39,754 bases of DNA from Parafilimonas sp. (lineage in GTDB: Bacteria; Bacteroidota; Bacteroidia; Chitinophagales; Chitinophagaceae): NCBI GenBank assembly GCA_017856455.1, contig JAFMEZ010000001.1, positions 74,439 through 114,192 on the forward strand. Direction: 5' to 3'. Position 1 is the first letter of the stretch; each line of letters starts with the position of its first letter. This document shows, in pieces, positions 13,674-36,304 of this stretch. The translations under genes were made by a program, and so were the position numbers. The notes beneath the pieces were generated by a model. The model had not been told where the DNA came from, ran no database searches, and worked only from the letters and a program-made list of their open reading frames with translations.

Positions 13674-14429
13674 ATGAGTAAGAAAATTTTAATCACAGGT
13701 GCGAGTTCAGGATTTGGGAAAGCCACTGCATATCGATTTGCAAAAGAAGGTTGGAACTTGATCATAACAGGAAGGAGAGAAGACAGATTAAATGCGATTG
13801 CTGATCAATTGATGAAAACATTTCAAATTGATGTTTCAATTAAAGTGTTTGATGTTCAAAATCGTGAACAAGTATTTAAGGCATTGTCAAATGATCCTAA
13901 TCTTGAAGACCTGGATGCTTTGGTAAATAATGCAGGCTTGGCACTTGGAAGAGATTATTTTGATGAAGCAAATCTGGATGACTGGGAGACAATGATTGAC
14001 ACAAATCTAAAGGGATTGCTATATGTTACAAAAGCAATTGTTCCATATTTTATAAAAAGAGGCAAAGGACATGTGATGAATATAGGTTCAACCGCTGGGA
14101 AAGAAGTTTATGAAAAGGGAAATGTTTATTGTGCAACAAAAACGTCAGTTGAAGCGATTAGCCAGGCAATGAGGATCGACATGTTACGACATCAAATAAA
14201 AGTTACAGCAATACATCCAGGTGCTGCTGAGACAGAATTTTCAATCGTGCGTTTTAAGGGTGATGAAGCAATGGCGAAAACAGTATATGATGGCTATCAA
14301 CCTTTAAAAGCAGATGATATTGCTGATACTATTTTCTATTGTGCAAATTTGCCTGAACATGTTTGTGTAAATAGCTTGGTTATGACATGTACTTCTCAGG
14401 CAAATTCATTTTATTTATTGCGCAAGTGA
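13674..14429 (+). CDS. short-chain dehydrogenase/reductase
   Basis: A 251-residue classical SDR. TGASSGFGKATA (residues 8 to 19) binds the cofactor, and NNAG stabilises the fold. The catalytic set is Ser139, Tyr152 and Lys156 in YCATK. An Arg-Arg after ITG suggests NADP preference. It resembles the YdfG type, which reduces 3-hydroxy acids such as serine or malonic semialdehyde derivatives, but the substrate cannot be read from sequence. It follows DUF4105 by 7 nt and overlaps the convergent sprA by 15 nt. Confidence 0.92.
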   Translation: MSKKILITGASSGFGKATAYRFAKEGWNLIITGRREDRLNAIADQLMKTFQIDVSIKVFDVQNREQVFKALSNDPNLEDLDALVNNAGLALGRDYFDEANLDDWETMIDTNLKGLLYVTKAIVPYFIKRGKGHVMNIGSTAGKEVYEKGNVYCATKTSVEAISQAMRIDMLRHQIKVTAIHPGAAETEFSIVRFKGDEAMAKTVYDGYQPLKADDIADTIFYCANLPEHVCVNSLVMTCTSQANSFYLLRK

Positions 14430-17400
14430 TATTCGAACCTGTAAGCCACCTCTCGTATTTACCGAAGGTGCAGAGTTAGAAATATACGGACTAACCCTTC
14501 TTTGATCGAAGTATAGTTGTAGATTAATTCGATTATTCAATACATAATCAATGGTAGGTCTTATACTGATTACTTTTTGTCCACCTGTTGCATATGCATT
14601 TTGCTGATCTAATCTTGAATTAGAATTGATATCATCTCGGATACTGAAATCCAACGCAAATGTAATGTCACTGCCTGCTGGCGCACTACCTGAATTCTGA
14701 TTTTGCTCTTTGTTTCCCATGCTAATATTGAAAGGCAAATTGACTCCTCTTTTTCGCCATCTCATTCCAAATGTAATTTCTGTAGAGTGAACCTCGCTCA
14801 ATTGGAAATCTGTTAAGCTTAAACTTAATTGTCTAGATTTTTTGTATTCAAACCTTCCTGAAAGCTGACTTGGTGTACTGAAATCAATTCCAATCAGAGG
14901 TGCAAACTGTTCAGATATCAATAAGTTGGGGACTAAAAAGTATGGAATAAAGTTCCCGGTAAGTGTATCAACAAATGAGGGAAATCCATAAAGTAAAGTG
15001 TCTTGAAATAATAATGCTGAGTTGAAGCTGTTCATGCTCAGTGTAGAATTATATGCATGACTCAATGTGAAATTGCTCAGTATGTTTTCTATACCTGGTA
15101 TTTTACTCAGTCCATTATAAGTAACCCTCCAATTAGGTTTTGGCATATAGCCTTTAAATGGATTTGTTTTCACAGATCCAGTTTCTCCAGTATTTAGAAG
15201 TGATATACTTTTGGGGTCTTGTTTTGTATAGGCTGCAATAAATGATGGCACCAGAACATCTTGGGCATATCTGCCATAACCTTTATAAAAGCCATCAGTT
15301 CCTTGCGCTTTGCTATATGGATTGTTTTCACCTAATCTTTTTGATAGAATCAATCTGTTTTCTTCAAATGTTTTGAAAGTTTGACTGATTGCATTTGGAT
15401 CAAATTTTCCAAATAATGTTTGAAATGCAATATAGCTGATGCTAAATCCTCCACCTGAATATGGATTCAGAGCGGAGAAAAGACCAGTATTTGCAGTATC
15501 CTTGAAAAGTGTTGAATAGTTTTTATTTAGTGTCCTATCAACATTTACATCAACCAAGAAATCTTTGAACGGTTCAAGTTGTGCAGTTAGATTGAATTTT
15601 TGATCATAATTCTGTAAGAATAAGTTGTTGAGCATGGGGTCGCTTGTAATCAATCCTTTCTTTGCGATGGATTGTAACCATGCTTGATTGGGTTGTTGAC
15701 CAGCAATAAAATCAATTCCGGGTGAAAGGCTTTTCCAATTTTGTCCAAATGCTTTTGTACTGTCTGTATAACCAGGTAGGAAAGTTGTTCCACCCTCATT
15801 GTAGGAAGCGCCAACTCTTCTAAGTGCTGTTATGATTCTAAGAATGGTTTTCTCTGCACCAGATAAAGTAATTTCTTTCTTTTGCTTAGGCTCTTTTGGT
15901 TGCTTCTCTTTTTCCTCTATAATGTTTCCATTCTTGTCTTTTTTCTCTTTTTTCTTTTTATTGGATGCAGTTTTTGGTTGCTTGGGAGCAGGCGGTGCCC
16001 CACTGCCATCGATGGCCCTTAAAAATCTTACCTTATTATACAACTGAGTGAAATTCAATTCAGCTGTGGCACCTGCTTGATTACTGTTTTGTATCGTATT
16101 GCCAAGGTTAACCGCGAGTCTTGATGCGCCAACCCAGTTGTATGTCGTTCTATATGCAACATTTAAACTCGTCCAATCCAATAAGGGAAAACTGTTCAGT
16201 GGTACATTATATGTTAGATCAGCATTATGATTGTAAAGTGTGTTTCTCCCACCTTTTAAAAAATTTTTTAAAAGCGAATCCTGTTTTGCTTTCGTGTCTA
16301 TCCTTCCAAAAGGTTCATCAACACGTGAATTATTGGTTGCGCGAAAATCAAAATTTAAAGATTTTGTAAGGTCCCACCTAAGATTATAATTTCTATCAAC
16401 CACAAAATACTTGTCGTATGTTTCTGGTATTTTGAATTTACCGCCTCCAACATTACGTGGACGAATAGCACCGAACTGTCTTCTGGTGTCTAGTCTGAAT
16501 CCTATTAACGAAGGCATCAAATTGAAATTTACATTCTTGATAAAATCTACCCACTTGCTTTGTATCGGTATGATCTTTTTGAATGGCTCAATGTATTTAG
16601 GTTGTTTGTTGAAATTATAGCCAATGCCTCCTTGCGTTTTTGCAACTTCATTATTTTCTGTGAGAGGATTATGCTGTTTTGTTTGAGTTAGAGAGTAACT
16701 GAAGTCAAAATTCGAAAGACTCCAAAGATGTATTTTTTTATCTTGTCTTTGTGCAAATCTTACATTGGTAAAATTAATGGTCTTGATGCCAGTATAGTCA
16801 ACTGCATCAGCATTGATGGAATCTCTTTTGTCTCTATAGAGTGAAAGTTTGTCTCTCAATAGTATATCGCGATCATACGGATCATATTGAGGGGCACTCA
16901 TCATTTCTGATAAGTTGAGGAAGAAAGGAATTTCAAGTCCTATTTGTTTTGGCAATAACTTTCCTAATTGTAAGTTGGCTGATAGATCATATTGTTTCAA
17001 ATCATTTCTATACCGCTCATTTACACGTTGTTCAAGCTGCCCAAAACCAACGGTATGCATATTTGCGGAAACAGATACAGATCCAAGATCTGCCAATTGA
17101 ATATTCATTTGTCCAACTGCAGCCCATGCGCTGTTTTCATTGATGCCTGAGAGCCGTAGTTCATTGATCCATACTTCTGCATTAACTGGTCGGCCTCCAG
17201 TTGGATCTTTTGGATTTTCCACACCTGCCAAAATACCTCGAATCTCAGCCAAATTTGGATTTCCATAAATGGAAAAGAGTTTTCCATTTACTCGTTTTCT
17301 ATATATCGCAGTTGGATTGTTGGTTTTTAAGTTTCTCTCGTTCTTCAAATCAATCAGTGTCTGCAAATCGAAGCTCAATTCATTTTCAGAAGGCCAAATG

Positions 17401-20400
17401 ATATTTTCATCAGATGTTCCAAAGGGTGTTGTTTTTAATGGGTATTTTATTTCATAGTAATGATTGATATAGTCTGTTCCTAACCTAACAACTGCATATA
17501 CTTCACCATCATTGATTTTACCGTATTGTTTCAAGCTTTCGGCATGATAGAACATTGAAAGTGTTTTGTATTGCCTTAAATCATGGTTAAAGCCTTTGAA
17601 AACCGCCCTGCCTCTACCTTCTTCAAGGTTTAAAACAGTCATGCTCAATGCCTGCTCATTTTGTAGAATATTAATTCCTCCATTACTAAGTGTTTGAACT
17701 CTTTCAATACCAGGAGGAGTTCTGTAAGGTATTGGATCTCTTCTGTCATTTTCTTCTATGTTGACGGCAGTAATATTGAAAAAAGTATTTTCTCCAGATT
17801 TGTTGATAGGAATATATGTTCCGGTTGTATCCAACTCATAGGCAAAACTTCTCCAGTTATTTCTGACAAGCTCAAGTTTTGCAAAACGCAATACCACAGA
17901 ATCTGAAAAATCTGTAAGAAACATTCTGATAAAACGTATTGATTTGAAGTCGGGTATTTCTCCAATCTTGCTTGTATATGCATTGATCGGAACCCTAAAC
18001 TGATACCATATTTGATCTTGTTTGCTTCCATCTGATAATGTAACATTCACTACTTTTTTATCAGCTATGAAGTTTTTGCCCACTTGCATGATTGGATCAC
18101 CAGATGGTTTTAGTTCAATTCTATACTGAAAGTATTCTTCAGCCTCATTCAGTGTATTGTCTCTGTTTAAATCTTCTCCATCGGGATACAAAGTGAATGC
18201 AGACGCAAATGCATCACCTGCTTTTGCCACAGGAGAATTTCCTTGAGGGTTATTAAAATTTTTATATCGCTTTAAGATGCCAGCATTTTCTTCATCATAC
18301 GTAGCATCTCTGTAATATTTAAAATTGTCCGATGATGGATCAGAAGCAGCAGTTTTATAAGCTGTTGATCCAACACCTAATCTATTTGCTAAATCATTTA
18401 AATAATCTTTTCTTTTTGTTATTTCTTCCGTATCAGATAATCCATCTAATCCAACATCCTGAAAGGGACGATCATTTGGCTCATTGCTAAATCCAGTTGT
18501 TATTTGTGTTGGGTTCAATGGTACTTTTCCCCAGTTAGAAGTGGCTACACTTGAAGGTATTGTTGGAGTGGGCAGTCCATTTTCATAAAATCTTCTTGAA
18601 TCTTTCAGAATGTCTTCTGAAATATTACCCAGGTTTATATACATTGATCCACCTGCTGTATTGGTATTTTTGATGAATGGATCTAGCACCCAAAAATCGA
18701 TGAACTCAATGTTTGCTGTTTCAAAATCTGTCTGATCAATATTGCGCATGATGCCTCCCCAACGTTTATTGGGATTTTTCAGGTTTCCGTTGGACTCAAT
18801 ATTTGTTGCATCATAATTATACGGACCTCTTTCCTTTGGGTAATAAGCCAAATCAAAAGTCACCAATTGACTTTGTCCAAAATCTGGAGTTCTTCTTGGG
18901 AAAATTTCCTGTTGTCCGACGCTTCTTACTCTTGGATCTGATAACTGCTCTACATCATTTCTAAGTGGATTGCTTAAATTTCTTTTTTCTTGAAGAATCG
19001 GTTCAATATTATACCATGCTAATTTTGCTCTGTTTTTTCCGTAATCGATATTATCGAAAGAGGTTGCTTCTGGAAACATGATATTTCCCGAACGATCTTT
19101 TGCTCCAACAGGTGTTGATGCCAACGTCCAACCAATGATTGGAAATCTCAAGTCGATACTTGATTTGGTCCCTTCAAAATCATCCAGATAAACCAATCCC
19201 TTTCCGCCTTTTCCAATTTGTGGCGCATGTCCTGGTTTTAATTGTGCAACTTCTGCAGACGCATTGATGCTTGAGCTGCCTGAAGCTTCATAAAATGGAA
19301 GTTTACTTAGCCATTTACTCAATCTGGGTACTTCACTGTTGTATGACATATCAAGTCCTGACATGCTGTTTCTAATTGGATCAGAACCATATTCCATTTT
19401 TGTGAAAAATGGTCTCTCTCCCAAGCGTACCATGCTACCACCCACTGAAAATTTATCGCTAAATAGATAATCCCACCTTACACCTGAATACGTTCTTTGT
19501 TGAACGCCAAATGTTGCATTGTTTTCAAATTGTACATTTACTGGCACACCAGATTGTTTGATCGAACTATTGATTACTCTTAGTGTACCCGATAAATAAT
19601 CAATAGTATAATCAACATTCTCAATTAATTTTTGTCCACCTGCTGTTACTGTAACGGATCCCTGCGGAATATTAAATGCGTTCAATGAAATTTCACCTGT
19701 AGAACCTCCTGATGATTTAGAACTACCTTTCATGATAAATCTGTTCAAGTTTGCATAAGTCTGTGCAATGGCCTTGATGGTATCATAAAGAGGATAGAAT
19801 AAATATTTATCTCTTAGCGCAGGGTCACTAAATGCAAAATCCAAATCGTGTCCAAATGGTTCCAACATTGGAAACATAACCCTGCTTTGATAAGAGTTCA
19901 CCGTAAATCCTTCAACATAGTCAAAAACACCATCAGGTTGTGGATCATTTTGATTGTTAAGTCGGTCTAAATTCATCAACGTAATCAATGGAACACCAGC
20001 CTGATCTCCCTCTGTGATATATCTTTTTTCTCCACCTCCTGGTTCCTGATAAAGAACATTGAATTGAAAATCCTGTCGCTCCAACTGACCTGATCCTACC
20101 GCGTATACATTCTTCATCATCAAATCCCATATAGGTAGTGATGTACGCTGTGAAGTTGCTTTCAATAATTTAAGAAAAAGAATTTTTGAAACACCACTCG
20201 TTGAATCAACTGGCACATCCTGGGCAAATTCACCCACCTGATATACCTTGCCATTTACCGTGTACTGATAGGCAACACCCAATACTTCATCAGGTTGCAG
20301 TGTGACATTGAGCGAAATAAATCCCAACTGCCTGTTGAAATAATATTGTGATGAATCAAGTTTTCTTGCGAAAGTCTTTTCAAAATCCCTGATTGGCTGT

Positions 20401-21653
20401 AAACCAATTGAGTTCATAAAATTTACAACCTGTGCTGGATTACGGCTATTAGGGCTGCTTACAATTTTACTGTATAAATCGTTGGATTGGTTGGAAGGGT
20501 AAGTTGCACCCGGACGAGGGTTGATTACAGGTGGTTGTTGGTAGGGTTTATCTTCTCCCAGATCCATCAAGCCAACCACATCTCTTGCATTGGTGGTTGC
20601 GCCATACCTGTTGGTTACCCATACTTCCAATCTGAGTAATTGAACTTGTGAGTTTACAATGGGTAGGTTTTTCATTCCTTTATTAAACTCTCTTCTGAAA
20701 TGCTGTGCCAAAAGGAAATGCCTGTTTTCTTCATACTCATCTGCTTTTATTTCAAAAGGCATTGATGTTGATCCGCCTTTGAAAGCAGTAGATTGTCTTT
20801 GTGAACGCTGACTTGCAAAAACTGTTGTAAGCCAAAGCTTCCCAAATTGCATTTGTGTTTTAATGCCAAATAATTGTTGTGCACCTGGAATCAAGCTTCC
20901 TTTTGTTGCGAAGGAAGTATTACCAACTTCAATTTTCTTGAATACATCTTCTGCTCCTCCGGTATAATCAAGCTTTAGTTTATTCTCAAAATCAAAAGTT
21001 GAAAGTGTGTTGTAGCTGATTGGAAATTTCATTTTGTCTCCAATGTTTCCAAGTACATTCAAATTTGCAGCCATGTCAAAATCTAATCCACCGTTTCTTC
21101 TTGCTCTTTCAGGAAGTGTTGGGTTCTTGATGTTCTGACCTTGATAACCTGTGGTAATATTTACTTCTCCTTGTGGACGAATATCTACCACGCCTGTTCC
21201 GAATAATCTATTGAATAGTTCCTCACCCATGCTTAGCCTGGGTTTTACAAGTTTTCTATTCAGTAAGCTGATTGTATTTGATCTCTTTTGAAAGTAGTCT
21301 CTTTCAGCTTTTCTGGATTGGATTCTTAAGTACTCGTCGAAAGTTAATGATGTAGGTTTTCTGAAATAACGACTTCCAATTTTTTCAATGATATAGTACT
21401 CCTTGGTTTTGTAATCATATATCAAAGAGTCTTTTACGTTGGATGGATCTTTTAAGTCGAATGGATTTTTTTTGCTCTGCGAAATTTTGTCACTTCTTCG
21501 GTCCTGAAGTGGGTACAAAAGTGAATCAATGGAAGGAACCGTATCTCTAGAAATTTGAATTGAGTGATGAAAAATATTCCCCTCTGCGCGCATTGTTGCA
21601 GCACATAATAGGGTGACCACCAGTCTTGTTATCTTATGCGATAACCTTTTCAA
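14415..21653 (-). CDS. sprA: SprA, outer-membrane translocon of the type IX secretion system
   Basis: A giant exported protein of 2412 residues. SprA (Sov in Porphyromonas) forms the very large outer-membrane barrel through which T9SS cargo leaves the cell. The sequence has a signal peptide (ITRLVVTLLCAATMRAEG), then the SprA N-terminal pattern (RLFGTGVVDIRPQGEVNITTGYQGQNIKNP, GSLIPGAQQLFGIKTQMQFG). The middle contains KGGKGLVYLDDFEGTKSSIDLR and NIEFIDFWVLDPF, and the C-terminus ends in ISLAQ. A Lys/Glu-rich stretch lies at about residues 1888 to 1927. The start is TTG at 21653, preceded by a purine-rich AAGAAGGA; no in-frame ATG lies upstream before a stop. It is 34 nt downstream of ruvA and overlaps the convergent SDR gene. 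Confidence 0.97.
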   Translation of the reverse strand: MKRLSHKITRLVVTLLCAATMRAEGNIFHHSIQISRDTVPSIDSLLYPLQDRRSDKISQSKKNPFDLKDPSNVKDSLIYDYKTKEYYIIEKIGSRYFRKPTSLTFDEYLRIQSRKAERDYFQKRSNTISLLNRKLVKPRLSMGEELFNRLFGTGVVDIRPQGEVNITTGYQGQNIKNPTLPERARRNGGLDFDMAANLNVLGNIGDKMKFPISYNTLSTFDFENKLKLDYTGGAEDVFKKIEVGNTSFATKGSLIPGAQQLFGIKTQMQFGKLWLTTVFASQRSQRQSTAFKGGSTSMPFEIKADEYEENRHFLLAQHFRREFNKGMKNLPIVNSQVQLLRLEVWVTNRYGATTNARDVVGLMDLGEDKPYQQPPVINPRPGATYPSNQSNDLYSKIVSSPNSRNPAQVVNFMNSIGLQPIRDFEKTFARKLDSSQYYFNRQLGFISLNVTLQPDEVLGVAYQYTVNGKVYQVGEFAQDVPVDSTSGVSKILFLKLLKATSQRTSLPIWDLMMKNVYAVGSGQLERQDFQFNVLYQEPGGGEKRYITEGDQAGVPLITLMNLDRLNNQNDPQPDGVFDYVEGFTVNSYQSRVMFPMLEPFGHDLDFAFSDPALRDKYLFYPLYDTIKAIAQTYANLNRFIMKGSSKSSGGSTGEISLNAFNIPQGSVTVTAGGQKLIENVDYTIDYLSGTLRVINSSIKQSGVPVNVQFENNATFGVQQRTYSGVRWDYLFSDKFSVGGSMVRLGERPFFTKMEYGSDPIRNSMSGLDMSYNSEVPRLSKWLSKLPFYEASGSSSINASAEVAQLKPGHAPQIGKGGKGLVYLDDFEGTKSSIDLRFPIIGWTLASTPVGAKDRSGNIMFPEATSFDNIDYGKNRAKLAWYNIEPILQEKRNLSNPLRNDVEQLSDPRVRSVGQQEIFPRRTPDFGQSQLVTFDLAYYPKERGPYNYDATNIESNGNLKNPNKRWGGIMRNIDQTDFETANIEFIDFWVLDPFIKNTNTAGGSMYINLGNISEDILKDSRRFYENGLPTPTIPSSVATSNWGKVPLNPTQITTGFSNEPNDRPFQDVGLDGLSDTEEITKRKDYLNDLANRLGVGSTAYKTAASDPSSDNFKYYRDATYDEENAGILKRYKNFNNPQGNSPVAKAGDAFASAFTLYPDGEDLNRDNTLNEAEEYFQYRIELKPSGDPIMQVGKNFIADKKVVNVTLSDGSKQDQIWYQFRVPINAYTSKIGEIPDFKSIRFIRMFLTDFSDSVVLRFAKLELVRNNWRSFAYELDTTGTYIPINKSGENTFFNITAVNIEENDRRDPIPYRTPPGIERVQTLSNGGINILQNEQALSMTVLNLEEGRGRAVFKGFNHDLRQYKTLSMFYHAESLKQYGKINDGEVYAVVRLGTDYINHYYEIKYPLKTTPFGTSDENIIWPSENELSFDLQTLIDLKNERNLKTNNPTAIYRKRVNGKLFSIYGNPNLAEIRGILAGVENPKDPTGGRPVNAEVWINELRLSGINENSAWAAVGQMNIQLADLGSVSVSANMHTVGFGQLEQRVNERYRNDLKQYDLSANLQLGKLLPKQIGLEIPFFLNLSEMMSAPQYDPYDRDILLRDKLSLYRDKRDSINADAVDYTGIKTINFTNVRFAQRQDKKIHLWSLSNFDFSYSLTQTKQHNPLTENNEVAKTQGGIGYNFNKQPKYIEPFKKIIPIQSKWVDFIKNVNFNLMPSLIGFRLDTRRQFGAIRPRNVGGGKFKIPETYDKYFVVDRNYNLRWDLTKSLNFDFRATNNSRVDEPFGRIDTKAKQDSLLKNFLKGGRNTLYNHNADLTYNVPLNSFPLLDWTSLNVAYRTTYNWVGASRLAVNLGNTIQNSNQAGATAELNFTQLYNKVRFLRAIDGSGAPPAPKQPKTASNKKKKEKKDKNGNIIEEKEKQPKEPKQKKEITLSGAEKTILRIITALRRVGASYNEGGTTFLPGYTDSTKAFGQNWKSLSPGIDFIAGQQPNQAWLQSIAKKGLITSDPMLNNLFLQNYDQKFNLTAQLEPFKDFLVDVNVDRTLNKNYSTLFKDTANTGLFSALNPYSGGGFSISYIAFQTLFGKFDPNAISQTFKTFEENRLILSKRLGENNPYSKAQGTDGFYKGYGRYAQDVLVPSFIAAYTKQDPKSISLLNTGETGSVKTNPFKGYMPKPNWRVTYNGLSKIPGIENILSNFTLSHAYNSTLSMNSFNSALLFQDTLLYGFPSFVDTLTGNFIPYFLVPNLLISEQFAPLIGIDFSTPSQLSGRFEYKKSRQLSLSLTDFQLSEVHSTEITFGMRWRKRGVNLPFNISMGNKEQNQNSGSAPAGSDITFALDFSIRDDINSNSRLDQQNAYATGGQKVISIRPTIDYVLNNRINLQLYFDQRRVSPYISNSAPSVNTRGGLQVRISLAQ

Positions 21654-30702: not shown

Positions 30703-31281
30703 ATGATATTACCAGTAGTTGCATACGGACATCCAGTACTCAGGCAGGTATGTTTGGATATCACTCCAGATTATCCCAATCTTGATATACTCATTGCAGA
30801 TATGTGGGAAACCATGTATCACTCCCATGGTATGGGTATTGCAGCGCCACAGATCAACAAGGCCATCCGATTGTTTGTGATTGATACAGAACAAGTGTAT
30901 GACAATAGTGATGAAGAGGAGAGAGCTCAGTTCGAGGGTGAAAAGGGATTGAAAAAAGTATTCATCAATGCACATATTTCTGAAAGAACAGGTCATGAAT
31001 GGAGCTGCGATGAAGGCTGCTTGAGTTTACCTGGTTTTAGAGAAGAAGTCACAAGAGAAAATATCATCACAATGACCTACTGCGATGAGCACTTCGTGGA
31101 GAAAACAGAAACATTCAGGGGGTTCAATGCAAGGGTCATTCAACATGAATATGATCATATTGAAGGAAAGCTCTTTATTGACAGAATTTCACTGATCAAA
31201 CGAAAATTGCTAAAGAAGAAACTTGAAGATATTTCTACAGGCAAAGTAAAACCTGGTTATAAAATGTTGTTTGCTAAATAA
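30703..31281 (+). CDS. def: peptide deformylase
   Basis: A 192-residue metalloenzyme that removes the formyl group from nascent proteins. All three motifs are present: GMGIAAPQ near residue 43, EGCLSLPG (metal-ligand Cys), and QHEYDHIEG (two metal-ligand His and the catalytic Glu). A short acidic insert, DNSDEEERAQFEGEKG, sits between motifs 1 and 2. Its last 25 nt overlap the convergent ruvX. No fmt gene is nearby. Confidence 0.97.
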   Translation: MILPVVAYGHPVLRQVCLDITPDYPNLDILIADMWETMYHSHGMGIAAPQINKAIRLFVIDTEQVYDNSDEEERAQFEGEKGLKKVFINAHISERTGHEWSCDEGCLSLPGFREEVTRENIITMTYCDEHFVEKTETFRGFNARVIQHEYDHIEGKLFIDRISLIKRKLLKKKLEDISTGKVKPGYKMLFAK

Positions 31282-31673
31282 TCTTGCAACATCATTGTTG
31301 CAGCAATCAAGTCGATATTTGATTTTTCTCTTCGATCTTTTTTCTTCATTCCCATTTCTACCATTGCTCTTGATGCCATCTTTGAACTGTACCGTTCATC
31401 TACAGAAACAATTGGTACAGCTGGGAAATTATTTTTTAATCTCCTGATGCAATGGTGCACTGCTGCAGTAATATCAGTTGGACTACCATCTAAGTTAAGA
31501 GGATTGCCAATGATTATTTTTTCAACAGATTCCTTGCTTACATAGTCGTTTAAAAAATCAAAAAGTTTTTCTGTCTCTATCGTGACTAAGCCATTTGCAA
31601 TAATCTTTAAGGGATCTGTAACGGCGATACCCGTTCTCTTTTTGCCATAATCCAATGCAATGATTCTTCCCAT
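31257..31673 (-). CDS. ruvX: RuvX/YqgF family, putative pre-16S rRNA nuclease
   Basis: A 138-residue RNase H-fold protein. IIALDYGKKRTGIAVTD holds the first catalytic Asp, KIIIGNPLNLDGSP the middle motif, and VDERYSSKMA and KSNIDLIAATMMLQDYL the last acidic residues. Family members mature the 5' end of 16S rRNA in E. coli; an older assignment is Holliday-junction resolvase. It is the last gene of a trmH-mqnP-ruvX operon, with no bases between its ATG and the prenyltransferase stop. Confidence 0.93.
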   Translation of the reverse strand: MGRIIALDYGKKRTGIAVTDPLKIIANGLVTIETEKLFDFLNDYVSKESVEKIIIGNPLNLDGSPTDITAAVHHCIRRLKNNFPAVPIVSVDERYSSKMASRAMVEMGMKKKDRREKSNIDLIAATMMLQDYLANNIL

Positions 31674-32582
31674 TTATCCAAAATAAATCAAATCGGTGAT
31701 AGTAAAGCATGCAAATAAGATGCTCGCAATTCCATTGGCTGTCATGAAGGCGATATTGACCTTGCTTAAATCCTCCGGCTTTACGATACTTTGTTGATAG
31801 ATCAATAATGTAATATAAATGAATAATCCAGCATAATATATCCAGTGCATGCCATTAAGCATTCCAAACTGAATTAATAAAATGGAGGTAGTCAAGTGCA
31901 AGATTCTTGATAACATCAAGGCATTTTTCCTGCCCAGAAAACTGGGAATGGAATATAAATTATTCTGACTGTCAAATGTATCATCTTGTAATGCATAAAT
32001 GATGTCGAATCCGCTTACCCATCCGATAACTGCAAACGATAAAACAATGATGGAGCTATTTGCTACTTCTGTAACTGCAATAAAAGCTCCTACTGGTGCT
32101 AATGAAAGTCCAATTCCAAGTATCAAATGACACAATGGGGTAAATCTCTTTGTATAACTATATCCAAGGATCACAAACAATGCAATAGGGGATAAGTAAA
32201 AACATGTTGTGTTGATCATCCAGGAGCTTCCTATGAATAGAAGTGAATTGATGATGGTAAATCTTAATGCACTAGCTGGACTAATAATTCCTTTTGGGAT
32301 CTCTCGAATGGCGGTACGAGGATTTTTCGCATCAAATTCTCTGTCTAAGTATCTGTTGAAAGCCATTGCGGCACTGCGCGCAAAAATCATACAAAGAATG
32401 ATATGAAAGAAAACCATCCAATGTCCTGTAAAATAATCTTTCAATTTGCTCCAACCGCTCAGCGATATTTCATCGCTTTGATGGTACATAACACCTACCA
32501 TAAATCCTACCAATGCGAAGGGCATTGCAAAGATGGTGTGAGAAAATTTTATGAGTGAAAAGTAATGTGCAAATTTTTTCAT
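31674..32582 (-). CDS. UbiA-family prenyltransferase, MqnP-like
   Basis: A 302-residue membrane protein with about eight hydrophobic helices. The first Asp-rich motif is N76-R-Y-L-D80-REF-D84, and the second is ALQDDTFDSQNN near residue 200; both bind Mg-diphosphate. The segments FSHTIFAMPFAL, AIREIPKGIISP and HLILGIGLSLAPVGAFIAV match the subgroup once labelled 4-hydroxybenzoate polyprenyltransferase. That subgroup works as MqnP in futalosine-type menaquinone makers, and mqnB/mqnD in this window make that role likely. Its ATG overlaps the trmH stop by 4 nt. Confidence 0.88.
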   Translation of the reverse strand: MKKFAHYFSLIKFSHTIFAMPFALVGFMVGVMYHQSDEISLSGWSKLKDYFTGHWMVFFHIILCMIFARSAAMAFNRYLDREFDAKNPRTAIREIPKGIISPASALRFTIINSLLFIGSSWMINTTCFYLSPIALFVILGYSYTKRFTPLCHLILGIGLSLAPVGAFIAVTEVANSSIIVLSFAVIGWVSGFDIIYALQDDTFDSQNNLYSIPSFLGRKNALMLSRILHLTTSILLIQFGMLNGMHWIYYAGLFIYITLLIYQQSIVKPEDLSKVNIAFMTANGIASILFACFTITDLIYFG

Positions 32583-33115
32583 GATGCGCTTCTCATTTGT
32601 TTATAAATCTCCCACAATACAATACCTGCTGAAACACTTATGTTAAATGAATGTTTTGTACCGAATTGTGGAATTTCAATACATCCGTCACATTGAGCAA
32701 TGGTAGAGGCTTCAACACCTGCTGCTTCATTCCCAAATACCAGAGCAATGGGATATGAAGATGTGATTTGTAGTTTTTCCAGTGAAGTGCTACCATGAGC
32801 CTGTTCAACAGCAAAAACTTTATAACCTTCTTTTTTTAGTTTTTCAATGCATAACAAAGCATTTTCTTCTCCTTCCCATGCCACAGTTTCAGTGGCACCT
32901 AGTGCAGTTTTTTGAATATCTCGATGTGGAGGTTTTGGAGTATATCCACAGAGATAGATTTTGTTCACAAGAAACGCATCAGATGTCCTGAACACACTTC
33001 CAACATTGTGCATACTGCGCACATTTTCCAATACCAACACAATGGGCATTTTATCCGCCTGTTGAAATGCATCCTTGCTGAGTCGGCCCAGTTCATCCAT
33101 TTCTTTCTTCTGCAT
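32579..33115 (-). CDS. TrmH/SpoU family RNA 2'-O-methyltransferase
   Basis: A 178-residue SPOUT methyltransferase. Motif 1 is NVRSMHNVGSVFRTSDAF, motif 2 LVFGNEAAGV and motif 3 IPQFGTKHSFNISVSAGIVLWE, whose knot binds SAM. It has no extra RNA-binding N-terminal domain, so it is a minimal member. The exact tRNA or rRNA site is unknown. I chose the ATG at 33115: a GTG upstream runs into the start of the divergent gene, and a TATCTTTG box lies 4 nt before 33115. Confidence 0.92.
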   Translation of the reverse strand: MQKKEMDELGRLSKDAFQQADKMPIVLVLENVRSMHNVGSVFRTSDAFLVNKIYLCGYTPKPPHRDIQKTALGATETVAWEGEENALLCIEKLKKEGYKVFAVEQAHGSTSLEKLQITSSYPIALVFGNEAAGVEASTIAQCDGCIEIPQFGTKHSFNISVSAGIVLWEIYKQMRSAS

Positions 33116-33119
33116 TAGA

Positions 33120-33127
33120 CAAAGATA
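33120..33127 (-). promoter_or_regulatory. -7 promoter box for the trmH-mqnP-ruvX operon, 4 nt from the start codon
   Basis: On the minus strand TATCTTTG matches TAnnTTTG exactly and ends 4 nt before the ATG at 33115. The divergent kinase gene has an equivalent box at 33158, so the 54-bp gap carries two back-to-back promoters. Confidence 0.5.
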
Positions 33128-33157
33128 CAACCTGAACCTACTTTTATGAATAAAGAA

Positions 33158-33165
33158 TAACTTTG
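33158..33165 (+). promoter_or_regulatory. -7 promoter box for the kinase-RapZ(C) gene, 4 nt from the start codon
   Basis: TAACTTTG matches TAnnTTTG exactly and ends 4 nt before the ATG at 33170. This predicts a leaderless message. Confidence 0.5.
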
Positions 33166-33169
33166 CACC

Positions 33170-34627
33170 ATGCACAATGCGTTTGAAAAAGTAATTGAAT
33201 CAGTCGGCAAATGGGATGATGATAAGAATATTGAGATTGAATCCCTGAAGCAAGCCGGTAGCAATCGTCAATATTTTCGTCTTAAAAAAGCCGAAGAGTC
33301 ATTTATATTGACATATAATCCAGGAAATATTCCTGAAAACAATGCTTTTGTTTCATTTACAAAACATTTTAATGATTTGGGATTGTTTGTTCCTAGAATT
33401 GAATTCGAAGACCCCGGACAAAAATTTTATGTACAGTCTGATTTAGGTGATGTATCGCTCTTCGATATCATGAAAAAAGAAGGTTTTTCTGAAAATGTAA
33501 AAACCTTATTCAAAAAAACATGTGCTTCTCTGGCCCAATTGCAAATCATTGGAGGTAGAAATATTGACTATAGCAATTGTATAGCAACAAGGTCATTTGA
33601 TAAACAGGCTATATATTCTGACTTACTTTATTTTTTATATTATTTTGTAAGAGCTCTTGATCTTCCTTACGATAAAAATCTATTACTGAATGATTTTGAA
33701 ATGTTGAGCAGTTATCTGATGCAGGAAGAACAACAATATTTTATGCACCGCGACTGTCAAAGTAGAAATATTATGGTCAATGACAATCAAGTTTGGTTCA
33801 TTGATTACCAAGGTGGCATGCAAGGCGCTTTGCAATACGACATCGCTTCTTTGTTGTGGCAGGCTAGAGCTCAAATGCCTTATGAATGGAGGGATGAATT
33901 GGTTGATTATTATTTTGAGCATGCCAACAAATTGTTAGAAGGAATGTTGAAAAAGGATGATTTCCTCTCTAATTATGATGGTTTTGTGTTGATAAGAATG
34001 TTGCAAACATTGGGAGCTTATGGGTTTAGAGGACTCTTTGAAAGAAAGCCCCATTTTATTGCGAGCATTCCATTTGCACTCAATAATCTAAAGTGGTTTT
34101 TGGAAAATAAGAAACTGCCTATTCGTTTACCGGCTTTGCAAAAAGTTCTTCATGAAATTGTTGCTGATGAAGTGCTTGAAAAATTTGCTACGGTAACTGC
34201 TGGTCCGGATTGTAAACTGACTGTTCACATCAATAGTTTCTCATACAAAAAAGGAATACCTGATGATCAATTTGGAAATGGAGGAGGATATGTTTTTGAT
34301 TGCAGAGGAATTTTAAATCCTGGTCGTCTGGATGAATATAAAACACTTACAGGAAGGGATAAGCCCGTGCAGGAATTTCTGCTTCATAAAACCAATATGC
34401 CTTCATTTTTGCAACACGTATATGGTATTATAGATATTTCGGTAGAAGATTATATTAAGAGAAGTTTTGAAGGACTAACCATCAGTTTTGGTTGTACCGG
34501 TGGGCAACATCGAAGCGTATTTGCAGCTGATCGATTAGCAGAACATCTTCGAGATAAATACAATGTAAATACTGTCATCAAGCATATTGAACAGGAAGCA
34601 AAAAATTGGATCAATGAATCCTATTAA
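33170..34627 (+). CDS. AmgK-like sugar kinase fused to a RapZ C-terminal domain
   Basis: A 485-residue two-domain protein. Residues 1 to about 325 form an aminoglycoside-phosphotransferase-type kinase of the AmgK (N-acetylmuramate/N-acetylglucosamine anomeric kinase) group. Its catalytic loop is H193-R-D195-CQSR-N200 and its metal Asp lies in FIDYQGG at 212. Residues about 349 to 485 match the C-terminal domain of RapZ: FDCRGILNPGRL at 376, TGRDKPVQEFL at 394 and SFGCTGGQHRSV at 439. In E. coli this RapZ domain binds glucosamine-6-phosphate. The RapZ N-terminal P-loop domain is absent. The partner gene, overlapping by 14 nt, is a MurU-like nucleotidyltransferase, so cell-wall sugar recycling is the likely task. 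Domain identities are clear; the substrate is inferred. Confidence 0.88.
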   Translation: MHNAFEKVIESVGKWDDDKNIEIESLKQAGSNRQYFRLKKAEESFILTYNPGNIPENNAFVSFTKHFNDLGLFVPRIEFEDPGQKFYVQSDLGDVSLFDIMKKEGFSENVKTLFKKTCASLAQLQIIGGRNIDYSNCIATRSFDKQAIYSDLLYFLYYFVRALDLPYDKNLLLNDFEMLSSYLMQEEQQYFMHRDCQSRNIMVNDNQVWFIDYQGGMQGALQYDIASLLWQARAQMPYEWRDELVDYYFEHANKLLEGMLKKDDFLSNYDGFVLIRMLQTLGAYGFRGLFERKPHFIASIPFALNNLKWFLENKKLPIRLPALQKVLHEIVADEVLEKFATVTAGPDCKLTVHINSFSYKKGIPDDQFGNGGGYVFDCRGILNPGRLDEYKTLTGRDKPVQEFLLHKTNMPSFLQHVYGIIDISVEDYIKRSFEGLTISFGCTGGQHRSVFAADRLAEHLRDKYNVNTVIKHIEQEAKNWINESY

Positions 34628-35354
34628 TAATTGCAAAGCAATGATTTTTGCTGCTGGATTTGGTACTCGCCTAAAGCCTTTTACCGACCATCATCCTAAA
34701 GCACTGGCCCCTGTCAATGGGAAAAGTTTGCTACAAAGAAATATCGAGTACCTCTCTTCATTTGGCATAAGCAATATTGTTGTTAATGTTCATCATTTTG
34801 CTGATCAAGTTTTGGAAGAGTTAAAGAGACTGTCTACTGATCATTTGAAATTTAGTATCTCTCATGAAAAGGACGGTCCTTTTGAAACTGGCGGAGGTTT
34901 GGCATTTGCTGCTCAATATTTAGATCATGGCGATGATCCATTTATTGTGATGAACGTGGATATGCTTACAAATTTAGATCTGTTAGGAATGTTTGATTAT
35001 CACCAAAAAATTAATCCTCTCGCTACTTTGGCTGTGACTGATCGAAAAAGTTCGAGACAGTTTTTATTTGATGAAGAAATGAAGTTGGTTGGATGGAAAA
35101 ATAATTTGACGGCGCAAGTAAAATGGGTTGATGGAGAAGTTGATGAGGTAAAACCATTTTCATTTTCCGGTATACATATTATTCATCCCTCCATATTTAA
35201 GTATATGCCCGACGCAGGTACATTTTCAATCGTAGATGTATATCTGAATATTGCCAAAGAAAAACTGATCATTGCATATGATCATACGGGGGATCTGATA
35301 CTTGATGTGGGAAAGCCTGAATCGTTGGTGAAGGCAGAAGAAGTATTTAAATAA
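34614..35354 (+). CDS. sugar-1-phosphate nucleotidyltransferase, MurU-like
   Basis: A 246-residue enzyme of the NTP-transferase family. The signature FAAGFGTRLKPFTDHHPKALAPV lies at the N-terminus, FETGGGLAFA contacts the sugar, and NVDML carries the metal-binding Asp. FSFSGIHIIHP and a final LDVGKPESL complete the fold. It lacks the C-terminal acyltransferase domain of GlmU. Next to an AmgK-like kinase the best guess is N-acetylmuramate-1-phosphate uridylyltransferase; mannose-1-phosphate guanylyltransferase is the alternative. I chose the ATG at 34614 because the frame before it starts with TTG inside the kinase gene. Its stop abuts rsmI's stop exactly. Confidence 0.85.
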   Translation: MNPINNCKAMIFAAGFGTRLKPFTDHHPKALAPVNGKSLLQRNIEYLSSFGISNIVVNVHHFADQVLEELKRLSTDHLKFSISHEKDGPFETGGGLAFAAQYLDHGDDPFIVMNVDMLTNLDLLGMFDYHQKINPLATLAVTDRKSSRQFLFDEEMKLVGWKNNLTAQVKWVDGEVDEVKPFSFSGIHIIHPSIFKYMPDAGTFSIVDVYLNIAKEKLIIAYDHTGDLILDVGKPESLVKAEEVFK

Positions 35355-36029
35355 TCAGGACTTATAATCTTTTCCTGCAATCACAATAACAATTTCACCT
35401 TTGACTCCTTTTGCATTGAAATGTTCAAAGACTTCTTTGAGCGTTCCTCTTGCATTTTCTTCAAATTTTTTAGAAAGCTCTCTTGAAACACTGCACTGTC
35501 TGTCCTCACCAAAATATTCCATCAGTTGCTGAAGTGTTTTTAGTAGTCTCATGGGAGATTCATATAAAACTATCGTACGTTTTTCTTCTGCAAGTGAAGT
35601 GAGCAGTGTATGTCGACCCTTTTTTAATGGTAAAAAACCTTCAAAACAGAAACTGTCTGTTGGGAGTCCGCTGTTGACCAAAGCTGGAATCAATGCTGTT
35701 GCTCCTGGTAAGCATTCAACTTTAACATCTTTCTTGATGCATGCGCGTATGATAAAAAATGCTGGATCAGAAATTCCGGGTGTGCCAGCATCAGTAAGCA
35801 ATGCCATTTTTGTTCCTCCGACCAGTTGATCAACAAGGCGTTCAGTGATTTGATGTTCGTTGTGTTGGTGGTAGGATTGTAATGGTTTGTTGATTTCATA
35901 ATGTTTCAACAAAACACCAGAAGTTCTTGTGTCTTCTGCCAGAATGATGTCTACTTCTTTAAGAACAGCAACTGCTCTAAATGTCATGTCGCCTAAATTG
36001 CCGATTGGTGTTGGAACAATATAAAGCAT
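35355..36029 (-). CDS. rsmI: 16S rRNA (cytidine-1402 2'-O) methyltransferase
   Basis: A 224-residue tetrapyrrole-methylase-fold enzyme that methylates C1402 in the ribosomal P site. YIVPTPIGNLGDMTFRAV and ILAEDTRTSGVLL open the SAM fold. LLTDAGTPGISDPAF is the family signature, followed by LPGATALIPALVNSGLPTDSFCFEGFLP. It stops about 50 residues short of the longest family members, without the small C-terminal extension. I chose the ATG at 36029 over a GTG one codon upstream. It is the last gene of the pepP-pssA-purS-rsmI run, 26 bp after purS. Confidence 0.95.
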   Translation of the reverse strand: MLYIVPTPIGNLGDMTFRAVAVLKEVDIILAEDTRTSGVLLKHYEINKPLQSYHQHNEHQITERLVDQLVGGTKMALLTDAGTPGISDPAFFIIRACIKKDVKVECLPGATALIPALVNSGLPTDSFCFEGFLPLKKGRHTLLTSLAEEKRTIVLYESPMRLLKTLQQLMEYFGEDRQCSVSRELSKKFEENARGTLKEVFEHFNAKGVKGEIVIVIAGKDYKS

Positions 36030-36055
36030 CACATGATTTTAGTAAGGAAGCCCGA

Positions 36056-36304
36056 TTATGATAGGATACTGATTTCGAAATGCTCCATTACTTGATTGGC
36101 AAGGAGTTTTGTTGCAGCTTCTTCAGCAATTTTTTTTGCTTCGCTCTCATTGGCTGCATCCACCTGAAGTGTAATTCTTTTTCCGATTCTAACATCTTGA
36201 ACAGCTTTTAGACCAAGGTTATGCAATCCACCCAACACAGCCTTACCTTGAGGGTCAAGTAAATCTTTCAGTGGCATTACATTGATAGCGACAGTATAGT
36301 TCAT
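36056..36304 (-). CDS. purS: phosphoribosylformylglycinamidine synthase subunit PurS
   Basis: An 82-residue protein, the small subunit that lets PurQ pass ammonia to PurL in purine synthesis. DPQGKAVLGGLHNLGL and the VQDVRIGKRITLQVD strand are the family pattern, and length is typical. Its presence implies that the organism uses the three-part PurSQL enzyme. Neither purQ nor purL is in the window. Its ATG overlaps the pssA stop by 4 nt. Confidence 0.93.
   Translation of the reverse strand: MNYTVAINVMPLKDLLDPQGKAVLGGLHNLGLKAVQDVRIGKRITLQVDAANESEAKKIAEEAATKLLANQVMEHFEISILS

Follow-up and report, generated by a model that had tools for sequence, protein, structure and literature searches.

A sugar kinase fused to the RapZ C-terminal domain and paired with a MurU-like nucleotidyltransferase: a putative N-acetylmuramate salvage cassette in Bacteroidota

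Two overlapping genes

The window analyzed here, a stretch of 39,754 nucleotides from a Parafilimonas sp. MAG (1.94 Mb, 89% complete), contains two overlapping genes (Table 1). The first joins an AmgK-like kinase to the C-terminal domain of RapZ (hereafter RapZ-C) within one open reading frame, and the second, encoding a MurU-like nucleotidyltransferase, opens with an ATG at 34614, producing an overlap of 14 nt with the first, the stop of which ends at 34627. The fusion and the overlap had been proposed from the nucleotide sequence (the original prediction) and both were confirmed. Pfam APH covers residues 26-249 of the fused protein (E 2e-13) and PF22740, the RapZ C-terminal domain family, covers residues 350-472 (113.9 bits against a cut-off of 27), the latter recovered in a domain search that the original prediction had suggested. 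The motifs lie exactly where they had been placed, namely, HRD (193-195), N200 and FID (210-212) in the kinase part and FDCR (376-379), TGRDKPV (394-400) and GCTGGQHRS (441-449) in RapZ-C. The N-terminal P-loop domain of RapZ (PF03668) was found neither in this protein nor in the 89% complete MAG, which bears out the view that the protein is not a classical RapZ.

Table 1. Features of the kinase-RapZ-C gene and of its overlapping partner (window coordinates)
Feature	Position	Strand	Basis
Fused gene, AmgK-like kinase + RapZ C-terminal domain	33170..34627	+	485 aa, single ORF
Kinase part, APH fold, AmgK-like (residues 1-320)	33170..34129	+	PF01636 E 2e-13
Kinase catalytic stretch HRD...N...FID (residues 193-212)	33746..33805	+	conservation, 45 homologues
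RapZ C-terminal domain (residues 345-485)	34202..34624	+	PF22740 E 6.7e-33; E. coli RapZ-CTD 5o5s E 2.3e-16
NPG (residues 383-385), aligned with NPH190 in the ligand pocket of E. coli RapZ	34316..34324	+	alignment
GCTGGQHRS (residues 441-449), C-x5-R-S loop	34490..34516	+	alignment + model
MurU-like nucleotidyltransferase, 246 aa	34614..35354	+	NCBIfam MurU 116.8 bits; PDB 4y7t, 8hhd

Among 45 fused homologues, R194, D195, N200 and D212 are invariant, and H193 of the HRD motif is variable, most homologues from beyond the genus of the window having F or Y instead. An AlphaFold model built from the 45-sequence alignment reached a mean pLDDT of 90.1 (a single-sequence model, with a pLDDT of 38.4, was left unused). 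The best Foldseek match of the model is 3csv, and the best 50 of 1604 matches are all titled APH-like kinases or phosphotransferases. The kinase part thus combines the APH fold with the catalytic D, N and D residues expected of AmgK. The top NCBIfam match of the fused protein is RapZ, followed by AmgK, the two models of which score 62.1 and 45.4 bits, well below their equivalog cut-offs of 550 and 500. For the second protein, MurU (NF045761) is the best of 41 NCBIfam matches, at 116.8 bits against an equivalog cut-off of 250, and the PDB matches include 4y7t (E 2e-21) and 8hhd (named MurU; E 2.3e-15). Because these scores lie below the equivalog cut-offs, we call the proteins AmgK-like and MurU-like.

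No Rfam match was found in the window. Between 32900 and 35600, we detected 13 promoter-like sites (mean of 10.3 in shuffled sequence) and, on the minus strand, a single terminator-like site (mean of 1.6 in shuffled sequence); repeats in 31200-36100, considered as a possible signal, look like chance pairs. Elsewhere in the window, the minus strand carries an ORF of 2412 aa (14415-21653), the product of which resembles SprA, a gliding/type IX secretion protein.

Conserved pairing and patchy spread

Of 395 evenly sampled Bacteroidota genomes, 49 have a match to PF22740, one in each. The RapZ-C open frame spans 476-524 codons in 37 of these genomes, where it is fused, and 134-169 codons in the other 12, where it is a separate gene; no RapZ of classical size was found among the 49. 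With the MurU-like protein of the window as the query and a threshold of E 1e-30 that was fixed beforehand, MurU was identified in 50 genomes, including all 49 with RapZ-C. Four of the 50 (G048, G219, G310 and G345) lie close to the threshold, at 1e-34 to 1e-36, and at E 1e-40, MurU is found in 46 genomes, every one of which has RapZ-C. The survey across Bacteroidota suggested with the original prediction also places MurU next to RapZ-C, by position, in 39 of the 49 genomes; in the remaining 10, the two are unlinked. Across 41 loci from 12 families, MurU recurs beside RapZ-C in 31 and the next neighbor cluster in 8, such that no other neighbor provided a comparable functional clue.

Among named loci (the best 80 of 588 confirmed places), 79 are fused, and a MurU match (E 1e-4) is present in 56 of the 80 stretches, some of which end shortly after the gene. 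The fusion is more than a chance event, given that it forms one open frame in 37 of the 49 genomes and recurs in 79 of these best 80 of 588 loci, which include Bacteroides, Parabacteroides, Phocaeicola, Prevotellaceae, Tannerella sp. and Ignavibacteria. It also appears in MAG contigs that carry the labels Calditrichota, Acidobacteriota, Elusimicrobia and Delongbacteria and that might be stray. In a Calditrichaceae MAG (L134), the kinase and RapZ-C lie in the same frame with a stop codon between them, possibly a further split or a sequencing fault. The nearest named loci among the matches listed are 50-54% identical to the protein of the window, and several are labelled Chitinophagaceae or Ferruginibacter. 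RapZ-C is present in the genome of the window and in 21 of 24 other genomes of its genus, but in just one of the 15 genomes examined from other families of the order. The cassette is conserved, and its spread is patchy.

In four genomes (G219, G310, G345 and G370), RapZ-C has no adjacent kinase, and a kinase homologue with 32-38% identity is encoded elsewhere. The only genome with MurU and no RapZ-C, G048, has a 330-aa kinase gene directly upstream of MurU. In the phylogenetic tree, the separate genes of family f19 form one clade, the split pair of G070 stands beside a fused sister (100/99), the kinase of G048 stands beside a fused protein (96/95), and the unlinked genes of families f62 and f56 group together. 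The tree was midpoint-rooted for drawing only, and several branches, including those of G048 and its sister, are long. We read the f19 clade, G070 and G048 as probable derivatives of the fusion, through separations and one loss. Separate RapZ-C genes of f62 and f56 (L053, 9947-10441; L055, 9886-10293; L054, 9838-10236) lie in 20-kb stretches with neither a kinase nor a MurU match; the two from f62, judged by eye, neighbor the same transporter-like gene.

RapZ-C and MurU are kept together even when separated or unlinked, and RapZ-C appears to be a dedicated third member of the pathway; the co-occurrence is observed directly, and any role assigned to it is inferred.

N-acetylmuramate pathway genes

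The closest described counterpart of the pair is the Pseudomonas route, in which AnmK, MupP, AmgK and MurU lead to UDP-MurNAc (PMC13041923). Caulobacter is described as having AnmK together with MupP, AmgK and MurU homologues and no MurQ, the AmgK and MurU locus numbers being neighboring (PMC13046382, PMC13041923). The cassette shares with these systems the same two enzyme families and the same expected product, UDP-MurNAc, but differs in that its kinase carries RapZ-C and it does not include MupP. MupP is a HAD phosphatase; NF045760, considered as a MupP model, was rejected because it represents YtpR.

By homology, the kinase part would phosphorylate MurNAc at C1, a putative AmgK-like function yielding MurNAc-alpha-1-phosphate, which MurU would then convert to UDP-MurNAc, bypassing MurA and MurB. 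The genomic distribution of related genes can be set against this scheme, starting with the competing etherase MurQ, which breaks down MurNAc-6P (PMC5790795). A threshold of E 1e-40 for MurQ was chosen after two well-parted groups of matches (1e-4 to 5e-12 and 1e-48 or better) were seen outside family f33, and this family, whose 86 genomes have neither MurU nor RapZ-C and lack a strong MurQ match, was excluded from the comparison, which sharpens the contrast. With f33 left out, MurQ is absent from 28 of the 49 genomes with RapZ-C versus 2 of 260 others. Within family f32, the contrast holds independent of the choice made for f33, MurQ being absent from 9/9 genomes with RapZ-C and from 1/16 others; within genus g92, it is absent from 2/2 and 0/3, respectively.

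Five of the 50 genomes with MurU (G154, G171, G219, G255 and G306, representing four families, f1, f50, f56 and f61) have no MurA above the family cut-off, and MurA was found in all 80 genomes sampled from the 259 non-f33 genomes without MurU, with one partial match below the cut-off. The Fisher p value for 5/50 versus 0/80 is 0.007, uncorrected for kinship; the sampled genomes are related, and Fisher values are not counts of independent events. MurB is also missing in four of the five MurA-less genomes (G219 retains it), and MurC is kept in all five. Tannerella forsythia is presented as a MurNAc auxotroph without MurA and MurB in which AmgK and MurU are assigned to an anabolic route (PMC7670621), and, by analogy, the five genomes look like natural MurNAc auxotrophs of this published kind. 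The genomes of G154, G171, G255 and G306 are near-complete, and these organisms, with no MurA or MurB and with MurC present, are candidate auxotrophs. A Tannerella sp. MAG (L153) has the fusion followed by MurU. MurA, AnmK, MurQ and MurC are all present in the genome of the window, and therefore the cassette would add there to the usual route; no match for MurB was found in this 89% complete MAG.

Homology, co-occurrence and natural MurA loss together indicate that the kinase and MurU very probably constitute a MurNAc salvage cassette that yields UDP-MurNAc. The salvage pathway put forward in the original prediction is thereby well supported, in that 49 of the 50 genomes with MurU have RapZ-C, MurQ is often lost and MurA is lost in 5 of the 50. 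The scores below the AmgK and MurU equivalog cut-offs count against the assignment and, together with a kinase fold that is common to many phosphotransferases, could suggest that the two enzymes act on another sugar or alcohol, such as GlcNAc, heptose or choline. We consider this highly improbable: among NCBIfam models, AmgK ranks second only to RapZ for the fused protein and MurU ranks first of 41 for its partner, and both the negative link with MurQ and the absence of MurA from 5/50 MurU genomes versus 0/80 others point to MurNAc.

The role of the RapZ C-terminal domain

The RapZ-C domain of the cassette is homologous to those of E. coli RapZ (5o5s, E 2.3e-16) and B. subtilis YvcJ and has the same C-T-G-G-x-H-R-S loop, but lacks the P-loop N-domain, has a glycine-rich insertion before the VFD strand and is partnered with a sugar kinase. 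Of the pocket residues H190, T248, G249, H252 and R253 (E. coli numbering), the last four are retained, whereas the first is replaced: position 190 is Gly in 135 of 135 usable cassette rows drawn from overlapping sets (45/45 unnamed fused, 78/78 usable named fused and 12/12 separate proteins). In ten RapZ-C rows that do not belong to the cassette, this position holds H in six, Y in two and F in two, the two F rows being a stand-alone plasmid gene (L190) and a short frame (L191). The former, at 916-1299 of L190, the Streptomyces plasmid pZL1 (typed conjugative), encodes a RapZ-C with the loop CVGGRHRA and has no annotated kinase or RapZ N-domain alongside. Judged from these alignments, the cassette RapZ-C is a distinct subfamily.

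Within the loop, all 135 usable cassette rows retain the Cys and 134 of them the Arg, and in the AlphaFold model, CTGGQHR lies between strand 435-442 and helix 448-464. This is the C-x5-R-S/T arrangement between a strand and a helix that we take to be the pattern of Cys-dependent phosphatases. No likeness to tyrosine or dual-specificity phosphatases emerged when a RapZ-C profile was compared with PDB sequences at E values up to 10, and the resemblance is possibly a convergence. Khan and Goerke had already pointed out that the RapZ pocket resembles a tyrosine-phosphatase loop and asked whether GlcN6P is hydrolyzed (PMC7199280). The phosphatase-loop idea is theirs; what the window newly adds is the link with AmgK and MurU.

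We tentatively favor, with a confidence that falls somewhat short of even, the interpretation that RapZ-C is the third enzyme of the pathway, a Cys-dependent MurNAc-6P phosphatase that replaces MupP. Cys442 and Arg448 of the CTGGQHR loop would strip the 6-phosphate from MurNAc-6P, produced by AnmK or a MurNAc 6-kinase, and the free MurNAc would be passed to the fused kinase, with RapZ-C acting as MupP does in Pseudomonas. Such an activity would fit because 6-phosphate removal is the step of the Pseudomonas route that is missing beside the kinase-MurU pair, and is favored by the invariant Cys in a C-x5-R-S loop between a strand and a helix. Outside f33, there are 16 genomes with AnmK and without MurQ, which should make MurNAc-6P and need an outlet for it, and RapZ-C in 15 of these therefore fits a phosphatase; the remaining one, G420, has no kinase match either. 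In E. coli RapZ, C247A and C247S both abolish activity, and the authors raised a catalytic role of the thiol; the tested pocket variants also fail in the GlmZ pull-down, so that a loss of RNA binding can account for the result without catalysis (PMC9841335).

Several observations count against a phosphatase. The nearest published fold to the RapZ-CTD is a subdomain of 6-phosphofructokinase (PMC5737377), and the PDB comparison produced no phosphatase sequence match. AnmK is not enriched, being present in 32 of the 49 genomes with RapZ-C (weakly in G255) versus 272 of 395 overall, such that a general AnmK-RapZ-C link fails phylum-wide, and 13 of the 17 RapZ-C genomes without AnmK also lack MurQ. 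Furthermore, G048 has the kinase and MurU without RapZ-C. In T. forsythia, growth at low MurNAc is reported to improve when the 6-kinase MurK is lost (PMC10465942), a result that shows no recovery of MurNAc-6P there, though MurQ competes for it.

The main alternative, which we regard as a real but lesser possibility, is that RapZ-C is an allosteric sensor of an amino-sugar phosphate (GlcN6P or MurNAc-6P) or a UDP-sugar, tuning the attached kinase up or down so that the output of salvaged UDP-MurNAc keeps step with the supply of UDP-GlcNAc. It is the idea of the original prediction with the ligand left open. The literature describes binding of GlcN6P by the E. coli RapZ CTD and a sulfate or malonate in the pocket (PMC7073468, PMC9841335, PMC5737377); the fusion places a binding domain on an enzyme, and the retention of RapZ-C in the 17 genomes without AnmK is explained better by a sensor than by a phosphatase. 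Sensing of GlcN6P as in E. coli is not supported in the form first proposed: the case for a gate through the E. coli pocket is weakened, since none of the 135 usable rows keeps H190, all having Gly there, and the segment preceding the VFD strand is remodelled. Gating of the kinase by the amino-sugar pool is possible, but mere phosphate binding needs no invariant Cys, and presence in 49 of 50 MurU genomes, surviving gene separation, is commoner for an enzymatic step than for a regulator. The putative phosphatase accounts for the invariant Cys and for the genomes with AnmK and without MurQ at least as well as GlcN6P gating.

It is also conceivable, but in our view unlikely, that RapZ-C only holds subunits together as a dimer or scaffold, for example, joining the kinase with MurU. 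The E. coli RapZ-CTD self-associates via the YVFD strand (PMC5737377), the VFD of which most cassette rows conserve, but the phosphate-binding loop is conserved as much as the strand, and RapZ-C remains as an unlinked gene in some genomes. Retention of the RNA-binding, RNase-adapter role implied by the RefSeq product name is less likely still. Two positions of the E. coli RNA surface persist, K170 (as K or R in most rows) and R184, but Gly replaces H190, an F, W or Y replaces R238, a small hydrophobic residue replaces K270, and the tail that follows K270, which presumably binds RNA in RapZ, is unconserved. Moreover, RapZ-C co-occurs with MurU, the genome of the window encodes no detectable RapZ N-domain, and the window has no Rfam match.

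Among the open-access articles searched, 22 name at least two of RapZ, MurU, AmgK and N-acetylmuramate kinase, and none of these names RapZ. We found no description of the kinase-RapZ-C fusion in the literature searched, which was mostly open-access, and its novelty is thus not proven. More speculatively, and on balance doubtfully, RapZ-C might at its root be a Cys-dependent phosphatase that acts on sugar phosphates in MurNAc salvage and is unrelated to its counterpart MupP, in which case E. coli RapZ would be a salvage enzyme turned regulator that keeps the catalytic loop.

The cassette gives RapZ-C a metabolic home in bacteria without a RapZ of classical size (49 genomes sampled), and the published suggestion of sugar-phosphate hydrolysis in the RapZ pocket acquires a clear, directly testable candidate substrate. 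In RefSeq, the fused protein of Parabacteroides distasonis (WP_005858754.1) and that of Bacteroides finegoldii (WP_237923178.1) both bear the name "RNase adapter RapZ", and records under this name in Bacteroides and Parabacteroides likely represent a sugar kinase of cell-wall salvage. The five genomes seemingly without MurA, four of them also without MurB, would depend on the cassette for their cell-wall sugar.
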